In this document: positions 7,382 to 63,955 of the stretch, one piece after another
Layout of the letters: every line of letters starts with the position of its first letter
Position numbering within the stretch: the first letter of the stretch is position 1
Made by a program: the position numbers and the translations under genes
Assembly (NCBI GenBank): GCA_015060165.1
Contig: SUZC01000004.1
Coordinates: 62,001-126,000, forward strand
Direction of reading: 5' to 3'
From: Rikenellaceae bacterium
Lineage (GTDB): Bacteria > Bacteroidota > Bacteroidia > Bacteroidales > Rikenellaceae
Length of the DNA stretch: 64,000 nt
Notes under the pieces: model-generated
Told to the model about the DNA's origin: nothing
The model's database searches: none
The model's input: only the letters and a program-made list of their open reading frames with translations

Positions 7382-8826
7382 CATCTCCACCATCTAATAA
7401 AAAAGAGTTGAATCAATCCAAATATCTCTAAACGGCCCAACAACATAAGAACCGTCAAATTAAATTTCGTCACAATAGGCATCGCCGAATAGTTATCCAT
7501 CGTTCCCACTTCGCCGAATCCGGGCCCCACATTACTAGCACAAGCCACCGCAGCCGAAAAGCCGGTCATCAAATCGGCTCCAAACATGGTATTCAAGAAC
7601 GTACCGACCAATATCATCATCATAAACGCTACGATATAAACCGATACCGTACCCAACATCTCTGAATCCTGCGACACGCCATCAATTTTGGTGCGGATAA
7701 CGGCAGTAGGGTGTTGTTGTGAACGAATACGATTGCGCAACATCTTAATTGCCAACAACAGACGATCTATTTTAAGACCTCCCGATGTAGAACCTGCACA
7801 AGCGCATACTATCGAACAGAATATCAACACCAATATAGCAAACGACGTCCATGTGTTGCAATCAGCCGTAGCAAAACCCGTTGTCGTTATAAATGATGCC
7901 GTATGGAACAATGCATTCCTTAACGATACAAGTATCGATGGATAAACATCGGCAAACCACAAACTAATCGCTATACAAACCGATGCGCCTATAATAATCG
8001 CAAAGTAGAATCGCGTAATCTCCGAGCGGAAAATATTGTTACGTTTACCCGTAACTGTGGCGTATATCAAACCAAAGTGGATACCAACCAATATCATCAC
8101 TATTGCTAAAATCCACTCTATCAAACCCGAATTAAAATAGGCTATGCTCGCATTCTTTGTGCTGAATCCGCAAGTTGCACACGCCGACATAGCGTGACAT
8201 ATAGCATCAAACCAGCACATTCCGCCCAATTTAAGAGCAATAGCTGTCACAACTGTCAAGCTCACATAAACCGAAAGAACAATCCTTACAACCGTTTGTG
8301 TGCGGTAGTTGAAGTTATCCTTTGCCAACGACGAAAGTTCCACATTCGAAAGCATCATCTTGCTCTTACCGATAGATGGCAGGATAACGAGTGCAAACAT
8401 CACAACTCCAACTCCGCCAATCCAACTTGTTGACATTCGCCAGAATTGCAATCCGCGAGGTAATGCCTCGATATTATTCAAAATTGATGCACCGGTGGTC
8501 GTAAATCCCGATACACTTTCAAACCAAGCATTGATAATCGTAAATTCACCGCCCCACATAAGATAAGGGAATGTTCCAACCATACACGCCACAATCCACG
8601 ATCCGACAACTATACAGAAGCCCTCCTTGGTTGAAATTCTATCTATTCGTGGCACAAAGATTAGCGGAAAACATCCAATGAGCAGGGTAATAAGCGACGA
8701 CATCACAAGTGGCGAATACGACGTATCGACATTGCTGGCGTAGGAGATACCCGCCGACAGCAACATAAATGCAGCCAATACAAGCAGCACTATTCCGATA
8801 TATCTTATCACAACTTGTATACGCAT
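7381..8826 (-). CDS. trkH: TrkH family potassium uptake protein
   Basis: 481 aa polytopic; 'ESVSGFTTTGASIL', 'ACATCGFSTKNAS', 'CAGSTSGGLKIDRLL' are TrkH pore/loop motifs. Confidence 0.93.
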   Translation of the reverse strand: MRIQVVIRYIGIVLLVLAAFMLLSAGISYASNVDTSYSPLVMSSLITLLIGCFPLIFVPRIDRISTKEGFCIVVGSWIVACMVGTFPYLMWGGEFTIINAWFESVSGFTTTGASILNNIEALPRGLQFWRMSTSWIGGVGVVMFALVILPSIGKSKMMLSNVELSSLAKDNFNYRTQTVVRIVLSVYVSLTVVTAIALKLGGMCWFDAICHAMSACATCGFSTKNASIAYFNSGLIEWILAIVMILVGIHFGLIYATVTGKRNNIFRSEITRFYFAIIIGASVCIAISLWFADVYPSILVSLRNALFHTASFITTTGFATADCNTWTSFAILVLIFCSIVCACAGSTSGGLKIDRLLLAIKMLRNRIRSQQHPTAVIRTKIDGVSQDSEMLGTVSVYIVAFMMMILVGTFLNTMFGADLMTGFSAAVACASNVGPGFGEVGTMDNYSAMPIVTKFNLTVLMLLGRLEIFGLIQLFFIRWWR

Positions 8827-55018: not shown

Positions 55019-56428
55019 ATGGCAAACTCTCATACATATGGAGAAGTGTGGCAGATATGCTTAGACCGCATCAAGCAGCAAACCTCGCAAGAGGAGTTTG
55101 CTCGTTGGTTTGAGCCTATCAAGCCATTGGCTTTCGATGGTACCCACCTCAAACTGAAGGTTCCCAATGAGAGTTATGTGTCGCACATCGAGAAGAACTA
55201 TCTCAAGCAATTCTTCGCGCAGATTATATACCAGCTCTATGGCAAGCAGACACGAGTACTTTATGCCGTTCCCAACAGCATGGAGCAGCAGAGTGTACCC
55301 GTTAATGCCGACACTACAGCCATTTCACAATTTACAACTCAATCCGACACCGCAAACATCAAGAATCCGTTTGTTATCCCCGGATTGAAGCGTATCACTA
55401 TCGATCCACAACTTAACGCCAAGTATACATTCTCGACCCACGTCGAAGGAGAGTGTAACCGTTTGGCTCGCTCGGCCGGTTTGACAGTAGCCTTGACTCC
55501 CGGATCTTCTCCATTTAACCCACTATATATATATGGAGCTTCGGGACTTGGAAAGACCCACATAGTACAGGCCATTGGCCACGAGGTGCGTGAACGTCAT
55601 CCAGAGTTGCAGGTACTATACGTATCGACCAACAAATTTATGGCTCAGTTCCAGACTGCCTATAAGAATGGTGAGCTAAACGACTTCATCCGTTTTTACC
55701 AGATGATCGATGTGCTTATCATCGATGACATACAGGAGCTTACCGGACGTAGCGGTACGCAAAACGTATTCTTCAATATCTTCAACCATCTACAGATGGC
55801 AAACAAGCAGATTATCCTCACATCGGATAAACCTCCCGTAGAGTTGAAAGATATCGAACAGCGATTGCTTACCCGTTTCAAATGGGGCCTGTCTGCCAAG
55901 ATTGACACTCCCGACTACGAGACAAAAGTTAAGATTATCCACTCAAAGGCAGAGGGTATGGGAATTACCCTTACAGAGGAGGTTGTAACATATTTGGCCG
56001 ATAATATCTCAGCCAACATCCGAGAAATCGAAGGTGCGCTTCTCTCGCTTAAAGCTAATGCCAATTATTTGGGACGCAGAATTTCGACTTCACTTGCAAA
56101 GGAGGTTCTGAAGGTATACGTGCAGATGAATCACAAAGAGATTTCAATCGCCCGCATTACCGAAATAGTTTGCCAATACTACGATATCGACGAGCAGAAC
56201 TTCAACTCATCGAAGCGCACTCGCGAGGTAGCACAGGCGCGCCAAATTGCAATGTATCTGGCAAAGCAACACACCAAGGCTCCATTGGCAGCAATTGGAG
56301 CGGCAATCGGAGGTCGTAACCACGCTACAGTTCTGCACTCTTGTAAAACTGTTAGTAATATGATTGAAACTGACAAGATATTCAAAAGCCAGATTGATGA
56401 GCTCGAGAAGATTATTGCAGCAGGATAA
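55019..56428 (+). CDS. dnaA: Chromosomal replication initiator protein DnaA
   Basis: 'NPLYIYGASGLGKTHIVQAIGHEV', 'DVLIIDDIQELTGRSGTQNVFFNIFN', 'AAIGAAIGGRNHATVLHSCKTV'. Confidence 0.98.
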   Translation: MANSHTYGEVWQICLDRIKQQTSQEEFARWFEPIKPLAFDGTHLKLKVPNESYVSHIEKNYLKQFFAQIIYQLYGKQTRVLYAVPNSMEQQSVPVNADTTAISQFTTQSDTANIKNPFVIPGLKRITIDPQLNAKYTFSTHVEGECNRLARSAGLTVALTPGSSPFNPLYIYGASGLGKTHIVQAIGHEVRERHPELQVLYVSTNKFMAQFQTAYKNGELNDFIRFYQMIDVLIIDDIQELTGRSGTQNVFFNIFNHLQMANKQIILTSDKPPVELKDIEQRLLTRFKWGLSAKIDTPDYETKVKIIHSKAEGMGITLTEEVVTYLADNISANIREIEGALLSLKANANYLGRRISTSLAKEVLKVYVQMNHKEISIARITEIVCQYYDIDEQNFNSSKRTREVAQARQIAMYLAKQHTKAPLAAIGAAIGGRNHATVLHSCKTVSNMIETDKIFKSQIDELEKIIAAG

Positions 56429-61802: not shown

Positions 61803-62348
61803 ATGGACAACTTTTGGATATTTCTACTCATTATCGGAGCTGTTGCTTCTATTGCACAGAAGAATCAGCAAAAGAACAAACCTTCCTCACCTGAAGGAGA
61901 GCCAACGCTCGATCCTCAGGCTGAGTGGGAACGTCGTATGCGTGAAATATTCGGGGACAACACAGAAAATGAAGTAAGCGAGAATCCAAAAGAGGAAGCA
62001 ACAGAAGGCTCAAGCACCGCCAATAAGCCAAACAATAAGCCTATAACTACTCAAACGGCACAAACCATAAGACATACCATTCCTGCGCCAAAGAAGGCTA
62101 CGCAAGCCCCAATAGCGCAGAGTGTAGCTTCGTATAGCAGGTCAAAAATTAGACATACAAGCTCTGCAACGAGTACTACGTCAACATATAAAAAATCTAC
62201 GGATAGTGTGTCAAAGACCAATAATCCCATTAAGTCTGGCGAGATATCATCAAACAATAGCGAAATTGAACAGATTATAGACGATTTCACCATGGAGAAG
62301 GCTGTAATTTACTCCGAGATACTTAAGCCAAAATTCGAGGAGTTATAG
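61803..62348 (+). CDS. Uncharacterised single-TM protein with low-complexity linker
   Basis: N-terminal TM 'MDNFWIFLLIIGAVASIAQ', Ser/Thr/Pro/Asn-rich middle, distinct C-terminal 'FTMEKAVIYSEILKPKFEEL'. Confidence 0.7.
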   Translation: MDNFWIFLLIIGAVASIAQKNQQKNKPSSPEGEPTLDPQAEWERRMREIFGDNTENEVSENPKEEATEGSSTANKPNNKPITTQTAQTIRHTIPAPKKATQAPIAQSVASYSRSKIRHTSSATSTTSTYKKSTDSVSKTNNPIKSGEISSNNSEIEQIIDDFTMEKAVIYSEILKPKFEEL

Positions 62349-62846: not shown

Positions 62847-62884
62847 TAGGTAATTTCACAAGTTTATAACTAACTGAAATGCAA

Positions 62885-62912
62885 TAGGGTAGTCATTAAT
62901 TTGGCTACCCTA
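62885..62912 (+). terminator. Probable terminator after the HIT gene
   Basis: TAGGGTAG / CTACCCTA inverted repeat followed by a T-rich stretch. Confidence 0.55.
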
Positions 62913-63016
62913 ATTATTTTATATTTAACATAATATAACGCGTAAAAAGAATTCGTATAAAAAATAACATAAAAGGGTAGGAGCGGGATCAAAATTGTAA
63001 AATAATCATCCATAAT

Positions 63017-63126
63017 TTACATTTGTAATTACACATGTAAAGTGATTACATAAGTAAAAATACGTTATAGTTTACTTTTGTAAATATACGCACTTTCAAA
63101 CTTTTGTTCAATATTCACACTTGTAA
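63017..63126. repeat. Array of TTAC-N4-GTAA short palindromes (candidate operators)
   Basis: TTACATTTGTAA 63017-63028, TTACACATGTAA 63029-63040, TTACATAAGTAA 63046-63057, TTACTTTTGTAA 63072-63083; near match TCACACTTGTAA 63115-63126. Confidence 0.75.
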
Positions 63127-63401
63127 TTAATGCGAATCGAGTAACAACCGCCACAAAATGACTATTTAAAGTAAAGTTAAATAACTAAATATGAGTTATT
63201 ATAATAAACATTATCAGCTATTTACACAATCTAACTAATCTAAAACATAAGCTACAAGCCATAATACAAGTCATTTCAGGGATAATGTTCAATATTGAAA
63301 GATTTACCCACATTATATCGCATATAATCAGTATTTTACACTAATTTAAATAAACTAAAAGTTTAAATGTAAACGCTTTGAACATTTTACCATAAATCAA
63401 T

Positions 63402-63417
63402 GTATACAATTGTAAAC
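63402..63417. promoter_or_regulatory. Extended operator-like near-palindrome GTATACAATTGTAAAC
   Basis: 16-bp near-perfect dyad containing ATAC-AATT-GTAA, about 90 bp upstream of the XRE gene start. Confidence 0.6.
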
Positions 63418-63459
63418 TTTATCAACACATCCACAATATTCACATCGGTAACAAAAAAC

Positions 63460-63490
63460 TTGTTTACAAAAGAAAAATGTTTTATATTTG
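63460..63490 (+). promoter_or_regulatory. Promoter of the XRE regulator, overlapped by operator-like sites
   Basis: TTG (63460-63462), 20-nt spacer, TATATTTG (63483-63490); TTACAAAAGAAA (63464-63475) and TTATATTTGTAA (63482-63493) resemble the upstream dyads. Confidence 0.65.
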
Positions 63491-63505
63491 TAAAAAATTA
63501 GGATT

Positions 63506-63955
63506 ATGCGTGAAAAATTACAAAAATTGATGTCCGCAGAGCATCTTACACCAAGCCGCTTTGCTGAATTACTCGGAATACAACCGTCTGGAGTTTCTCA
63601 CCTTCTAAGTGGACGAAACAAGCCAAGCTTTGATTTGGTGCAAAAAATCCTGCGCCGTTTTCCGCATATTAATCCAGACTGGCTGCTGCTCGAAAACGAA
63701 CATATGTATCGCTCGGAACAGAGTAACATCTTCGATTCTGCGACTCATTCCAATTCTGATGATCTGACCAATACGGCGATAAATGAAGAAAAAAAATTAG
63801 CCGCGCAAAATATCGCATTCTCGGAGAGTTCTCCGCTAACTGCTAATCGCATCGACGAGGTGTTGATAAAGAGTTCATCTAATCAAAAAATTGTAAAACG
63901 AGTTATCGTTCTCTTTGACGACCATACATTCGAGAGTTTTGAGATGGCTAAATAG
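63506..63955 (+). CDS. XRE-family HTH transcriptional regulator
   Basis: 'LTPSRFAELLGIQPSGVSHLLSGRNKPSFDLVQKILRRFPHINPDWLLL'; C-terminal 'IVKRVIVLFDDHTFESFEMAK'. Confidence 0.85.
   Translation: MREKLQKLMSAEHLTPSRFAELLGIQPSGVSHLLSGRNKPSFDLVQKILRRFPHINPDWLLLENEHMYRSEQSNIFDSATHSNSDDLTNTAINEEKKLAAQNIAFSESSPLTANRIDEVLIKSSSNQKIVKRVIVLFDDHTFESFEMAK

Follow-up and report, generated by a model that had tools for sequence, protein, structure and literature searches.

The systems closest to the locus described here are known from several settings. In enterobacteria, the sequence-specific DNA-binding protein MatP is tied to the terminus region through matS sites, which are scattered over the Ter domain, and the terminus of Bacillus subtilis carries XerD-only sites linked to SMC unloading. 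Autoregulated XRE/HTH_3 repressors of the phage CI, RstR and DicA type are associated with palindromes over their own promoters. The plasmid Xer sites cer and psi use accessory sequences for ArgR/PepA or ArcA (PMC5357621).

The present locus lies in a 64-kb stretch of Rikenellaceae DNA, here called the window, and resembles each of these systems in part. It shares an HTH_3 protein and palindromes over its own promoter with the CI, RstR and DicA type, but differs in having nine sites in two clusters 290 bp apart with a module pair between them, as well as in its order-wide chromosomal conservation and its terminus location. Like cer and psi, it combines a transcriptional regulator on a long accessory stretch with a nearby Xer core site; unlike them, it is chromosomal, its XRE-type protein has its own promoter, the Xer core is often hundreds of base pairs away or separated, and the arrangement is known from sequence alone. 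As with MatP, a sequence-specific DNA-binding protein would be tied to the terminus region, whereas its sites are gathered at one locus and are not dispersed or enriched elsewhere as matS sites would be. As in B. subtilis, a XerD arm without a partner arm is found in a terminus-linked locus, but here as one strictly placed half-site attached to the XRE array. The best overall explanation, to which we assign a rough probability of one half, is a conserved nucleoprotein locus that regulates itself, sits in the chromosome terminus region and may be an accessory to Xer/dif.

The dyad array and the XRE protein

The 659-bp gap upstream of the XRE gene (62847-63505) holds four exact and five one-mismatch TTAC-N4-GTAA dyads (Table 1). 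An earlier note on this DNA had located the exact dyads at 63017, 63029, 63046 and 63072 correctly, and there are no others in the window, where exact TTACNNNNGTAA is expected 0.66 times. The note had also named ordinary motif density as a finding that would undo its interpretation; this did not hold, since the gap stands far above its dinucleotide shuffles (n = 2000; mean 0.052 exact and 0.93 one-mismatch dyads, none of the 2000 with four exact). Its near matches at 63115, 63464 and 63482 are all one-mismatch copies, the near-palindrome GTATACAATTGTAAAC is present at 63402, and the promoter reads as described, with TTG at 63460-63462 and TATATTTG at 63483-63490. The gap is free of ORFs as it had said, the longest frame between stops spanning at most 49 codons. 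It overlooked the dyad at 63440, the pair of modules that separates the clusters, the XerD half-site with dif close by, and the terminus location.

Table 1. Features of the XRE locus, in window coordinates unless a contig is named
Feature	Position	Strand	Remarks
Terminator-like hairpin AGGGTAG...CTACCCT	62886..62911	+	After HIT-family gene; divides HIT gene from array
XerD half-site ATTTAACATAATAT	62923..62936	-	Reverse complement of XerD arm TTATGTTAAAT; without XerC arm
Distal dyad 1	63017..63028	.	Exact
Distal dyad 2	63029..63040	.	Exact; abuts dyad 1
Distal dyad 3	63046..63057	.	Exact
Distal dyad 4	63072..63083	.	Exact
Distal dyad 5	63115..63126	.	One mismatch in the window; several relatives have an exact copy
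Module copy 1, ATTATCAGCTATTTACACAATCTAACTAATCTAAA core	63200..63245	+	Conserved block in genus; other families have it upstream of XRE too
Module copy 2, TAATCAGTATTTTACACTAATTTAAATAAACTAAA core	63315..63360	+	CAG anchors 114 bp from copy 1
Conserved block TTTTACCATAA	63385..63395	+	From alignment of genus loci
Proximal dyad at -102	63404..63415	.	One mismatch
Proximal dyad at -66	63440..63451	.	One mismatch; weak here, stronger in relatives
XRE promoter TTG-N20-TATATTTG	63460..63490	+	Among the gap's most conserved blocks
Proximal dyad at -42	63464..63475	.	One mismatch; overlaps promoter
Proximal dyad at -24	63482..63493	.	One mismatch; overlaps -7 element
XRE gene (149 aa)	63506..63955	+	HTH_3 domain, variable linker, conserved C-terminal beta hairpin (Pfam, alignment, model)
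Full dif-like site	G000:C18:126129-126154		173 bp past XRE stop, outside window

The genome-wide scan that the earlier note had proposed gave a divided answer. Over the 2.19-Mb genome, the loose dyad pattern is no more frequent than a reversed control (51 and 57 sites), so that the signal consists of clustering at a single locus; of the four occurrences of the stricter TTACANNTGTAA, two fall in the gap. One of the other two exact sites (G000:C14:152466-152477, or L082:1501-1512) is flanked by a TlpA-like gene and the dnaG primase gene, with a XerC-like gene about 1.8 kb away, and may be there by chance.

The XRE protein belongs to HTH_3 (PF01381; 32.6 bits, cut-off 23), and its recognition-helix region, around SHILSGRNKPS, is nearly invariant in an alignment of homologs. 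In the structure model (mean pLDDT 75.7) the HTH and the C-terminal hairpin are confident, and the model says nothing on dimers; a search of solved structures gave only two matches, both generic HTH. Upstream of the array, several relatives carry stem sequences related to that of the terminator-like hairpin. Between relA/spoT and the HIT gene, the window also encodes a 181-aa ORF (61803-62348) with an N-terminal hydrophobic stretch and no match in a Pfam comparison.

Conservation in the genus and across Bacteroidales

Of 41 genomes searched, 33 have an XRE homolog, and 19 XRE loci come from named MAGs and isolates that are labelled Alistipes, Rikenellaceae, Labilibacter, Saccharicrinis and Plebeiobacterium. 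The gap can be aligned end to end across the genus loci, the bases between the dyads being variable. Measured from the XRE start, the dyads keep their positions in 29 related loci, at about -490, -478, -461, -435 and -391 and again at -102, -66, -42 and -24. The exact TTACANNTGTAA occurs 70 times in the 29 genus loci, against 0.1 expected, and together with the one-mismatch copies the dyads form two zones, with none between -375 and -125. A lack of dyad conservation in relatives, the other outcome that the earlier note had named as fatal, is thus not what we found. One sequence deposited as 'Bacteriophage sp.' (unverified; MT836585.1, 6477-14653) carries the relA end, the HIT gene and the XRE array; its half-site is placed at -586 and its dif-like site, a perfect one, at +661. 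It has the appearance of a piece of chromosome from a close relative.

The roughly 290 bp between the clusters contain two same-strand copies of a second conserved module, approximately ATAAYCAG-N2-TTTTA-N6-TTATATAAAGTNAA. A profile of this stretch built from genus sequences only recognises the corresponding position in front of the XRE genes of other families (best E 6.6e-10) and has no further match in 175-400 kb stretches of three genus genomes. The two best module matches lie 100-130 bp apart in 17 of 44 other loci, including those of Parabacteroides, Bacteroides and Phocaeicola, and the spacings cluster near 105 and 116 bp; by our estimate, two random positions in such a region would show a spacing of 100-130 bp roughly once in 20 times. 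The length and conservation of this non-coding stretch might suggest a small RNA gene between the clusters, a reading that we consider barely credible: the gap has no Rfam match at gathering score, the consensus fold energy of the stretch is 0 on either strand, and what is conserved are short AT-rich blocks. A structured non-coding RNA was rejected on these grounds.

Across Bacteroidales, with one genome per family, XRE homologs occur in 75 of 88 genomes. The comparison outside the genus covered 43 XRE loci, mostly with 26-43% protein identity and often with different neighbour genes, and nearly all compared sequences are draft MAGs. These 43 loci hold 50 exact TTACA-N2-TGTAA sites against 0.16 expected, the reversed pattern being absent. 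When 13-mers shared near the extra-genus XRE genes were counted with no prior motif, TTACA-N2-TGTAA ranked first, with 18 loci. In Bacteroides and Parabacteroides the gene order is holA, 0.8-1.2 kb of non-coding DNA and XRE-pyrK-pyrD, and the dyads upstream of XRE are degenerate.

Judged by their conservation, the palindromes are very probably real binding sites of the protein encoded by the adjacent gene. The order-wide sites, the unbiased 13-mer ranking and the nearly invariant recognition-helix region are strong evidence that the XRE protein binds the dyad. The last two dyads overlap the promoter, which suggests autorepression, and the palindromes co-evolve with the gene. We regard it as highly probable that the XRE protein binds the dyads and represses its own promoter because the dyads exceed shuffled expectation, keep their distances in relatives and top the shared 13-mers across the order. 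The multi-site autoregulation proposed in the earlier note is strongly supported in that proximal sites overlap the XRE promoter, positions are kept in relatives and the sites track XRE despite changed neighbour genes. Its alternative of an iteron-like element is not supported: an iteron plasmid or chromid origin has direct iterons and a cognate Rep gene, whereas the units here are dyads and no replication initiator gene adjoins them.

Some further sequences touch on the locus. An RNase P RNA gene (Rfam match) adjoins it at L152:479-831, and about 0.6-0.85 kb upstream of XRE in G145:C5 there is a similar RNA on the other strand, as judged by eye. NZ_OY725779.1 and NZ_OY725929.1 (L272, L273, L276-L280) are catalogued as circular plasmids from Parabacteroides distasonis and Bacteroides finegoldii; they carry the chromosomal housekeeping genes gyrA, holA, nqr, dnaJ and ligA and look like chromosome pieces.

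Xer-type sites and the chromosome terminus

Bordering the array, a XerD half-site contains the reverse complement of TTATGTTAAAT, the XerD arm of E. coli dif. Compared with a dif of 28 bp and both arms, it has the XerD arm alone, which is conserved: across the genus it stands near -583 or -570 relative to the XRE start, and in G004 it keeps its usual place even though the full dif-like site is on another contig. TTTAACATAATAT occurs twice in the whole genome, once in this half-site and once 190 bp past the XRE stop, where it is part of a full dif-like site (consensus in relatives TTGATGTAATA-N6-TTATGTTAAAT). The latter has the 28 bp, two arms and 6-bp centre of a dif and is single in the genome, which encodes XerD and a XerC-like gene. 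About 18 genus genomes have a full dif-like site no more than 1.5 kb from XRE; for about 11 others, the flank that was read does not include XRE, and in some genus genomes dif is away from XRE. Several relatives (L003, L004, L034-L038) have a further XerD half-site, in either orientation, shortly after the XRE gene, about +490 to +550 from its start. In G019:C3 two dif-like sites in the same orientation (2646-2671 and 8041-8066; L129, L131) lie 5.4 kb apart and may mark a small element that the host Xer system has inserted at dif.

Throughout, dif was recognised by sequence similarity alone. An unbiased 28-mer comparison of six Labilibacter, Saccharicrinis and Plebeiobacterium loci revealed a conserved dif-like site with the core TWWATTATGTTA, 0.95-1.2 kb upstream of XRE; five of the six genomes contain no other exact match to the consensus of this site. 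Plebeiobacterium and Saccharicrinis have another dif-like site, 2.9 kb past XRE, which was dismissed because it lies inside a coding frame. Across the order, the dif search near XRE stayed at background level outside the genus, with none recognised in Bacteroides or most other families, and a 28-mer search for dif found none in Bacteroides, Parabacteroides or Phocaeicola. GTAACAGAAAATAAC, common to L152 and L153, was considered as the dif of other families and stayed unsupported.

Xer-type sites on both sides of the locus in the genus could also be read as the trace of a domesticated Xer-integrated mobile element, of which the repressor gene, the operators, an origin-like region and an att half-site were kept after integration at dif. 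The sub-threshold similarity of XRE to phage regulators and to the RstR phage repressor family (NCBIfam NF041951; 21.4 bits, cut-off 80) fits such a history. We nevertheless consider it unlikely: the site pairs are inverted in 22 of 31 cases, where an integrated element would give directly repeated att sites around its own genes. Moreover, Rep, capsid and mobilisation genes are absent within the locus, which occurs across the whole order, and the inspected phage and plasmid database matches resemble chromosome fragments.

GC skew was taken from sampled values in genomes that are not closed; G145, G136, G140, G039 and G119 had been picked for their long contigs before skew was seen. The main plus-to-minus switch lies about 20 kb from XRE in G145 (whole 1.11-Mb contig of a 1.2-Mb genome sampled), within about 30 kb in G136, about 20 kb away in G140, where skew is weak, about 40 kb in G039 and about 100 kb in G119. 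For Parabacteroides distasonis, the switch roughly coincides with XRE, although skew just left of it is close to zero. All six genomes belong to distant Bacteroidales. In the window's own genus, three genomes (G000, G002, G015) show no switch at the locus or its dif-like site, that of G002 being about 138 kb off, so that the terminus claim there is drawn from dif alone.

These positions bear on two further readings. The XRE protein on two dyad clusters might halt forks at the terminus in the manner of RTP or Tus in other systems, and several phased sites as well as the skew-terminus location in six genomes would suit a replication fork barrier; known barriers are polar whereas the dyads are symmetric, and the window's genus lacks a switch at the locus, which makes this very unlikely. 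The locus as chromosome origin (oriC), suggested by dnaA at 55019-56428 and by TTATYAACA boxes beside the dyads, is more improbable still and largely refuted by skew: the three genus genomes have no minus-to-plus switch here, and in other families the locus is near the skew maximum, not a minimum. The dnaA gene itself precedes the gap by 6.4 kb and has no skew minimum in its vicinity; it therefore appears not to mark the origin in this genome.

A probable nucleoprotein locus and its possible role

In the mechanism that we propose, XRE dimers would fill the TTACA-N2-TGTAA dyads in both clusters, and the proximal dyads, covering the XRE promoter, would let the protein repress its own gene. The two modules and the distal cluster, which lies 390-490 bp upstream, might take part in a larger nucleoprotein complex whose geometry is fixed and which is probably looped or wrapped; looping between the clusters is possible, and the whole region is probably one nucleoprotein element. 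This complex would most likely also serve the handling of the terminus, for instance as an accessory to XerCD/dif, because the locus is in the terminus region and beside Xer-type sites in the window's genus and in Labilibacter, Saccharicrinis and Plebeiobacterium. That the region acts in terminus or Xer processes is a hypothesis we advance with some reserve.

The main rival is autoregulation and nothing else, through a long operator whose distal cluster loops or titrates and whose modules bind an architectural protein, the terminus location being a by-product of a stable neighbourhood. Promoter-covering proximal dyads, the company that the dyads keep with XRE among different neighbours, and the lack of a recognised dif near XRE in most families all agree with it; it leaves unexplained why six families with differing neighbour genes all have XRE close to the skew terminus and why the XerD half-site stays with the array. 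We regard this rival as less likely than not. Returning to the conserved nucleoprotein locus of the terminus region, its boldest form, an undescribed Bacteroidales terminus element in which XRE sits beside its own 0.6-1.2 kb platform and positions XerCD/dif activity, SMC unloading or sister-terminus separation, is a tentative proposal, held less firmly than a terminus or Xer role in general.

If it were true, this element would play the part in Bacteroidales that MatP, PepA/ArgR or RTP-type systems play in other settings. On the minimal reading there is still a clearly defined operator, TTACA-N2-TGTAA, and it belongs to a conserved regulator that no specific curated family covers. An order-wide conserved protein, its DNA site and a nearby Xer site together offer a direct, testable handle in tractable gut bacteria. 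The XRE gene and its long control region have been kept across an order of gut bacteria, often near the end of chromosome copying, which suggests a role in finishing or separating chromosomes.
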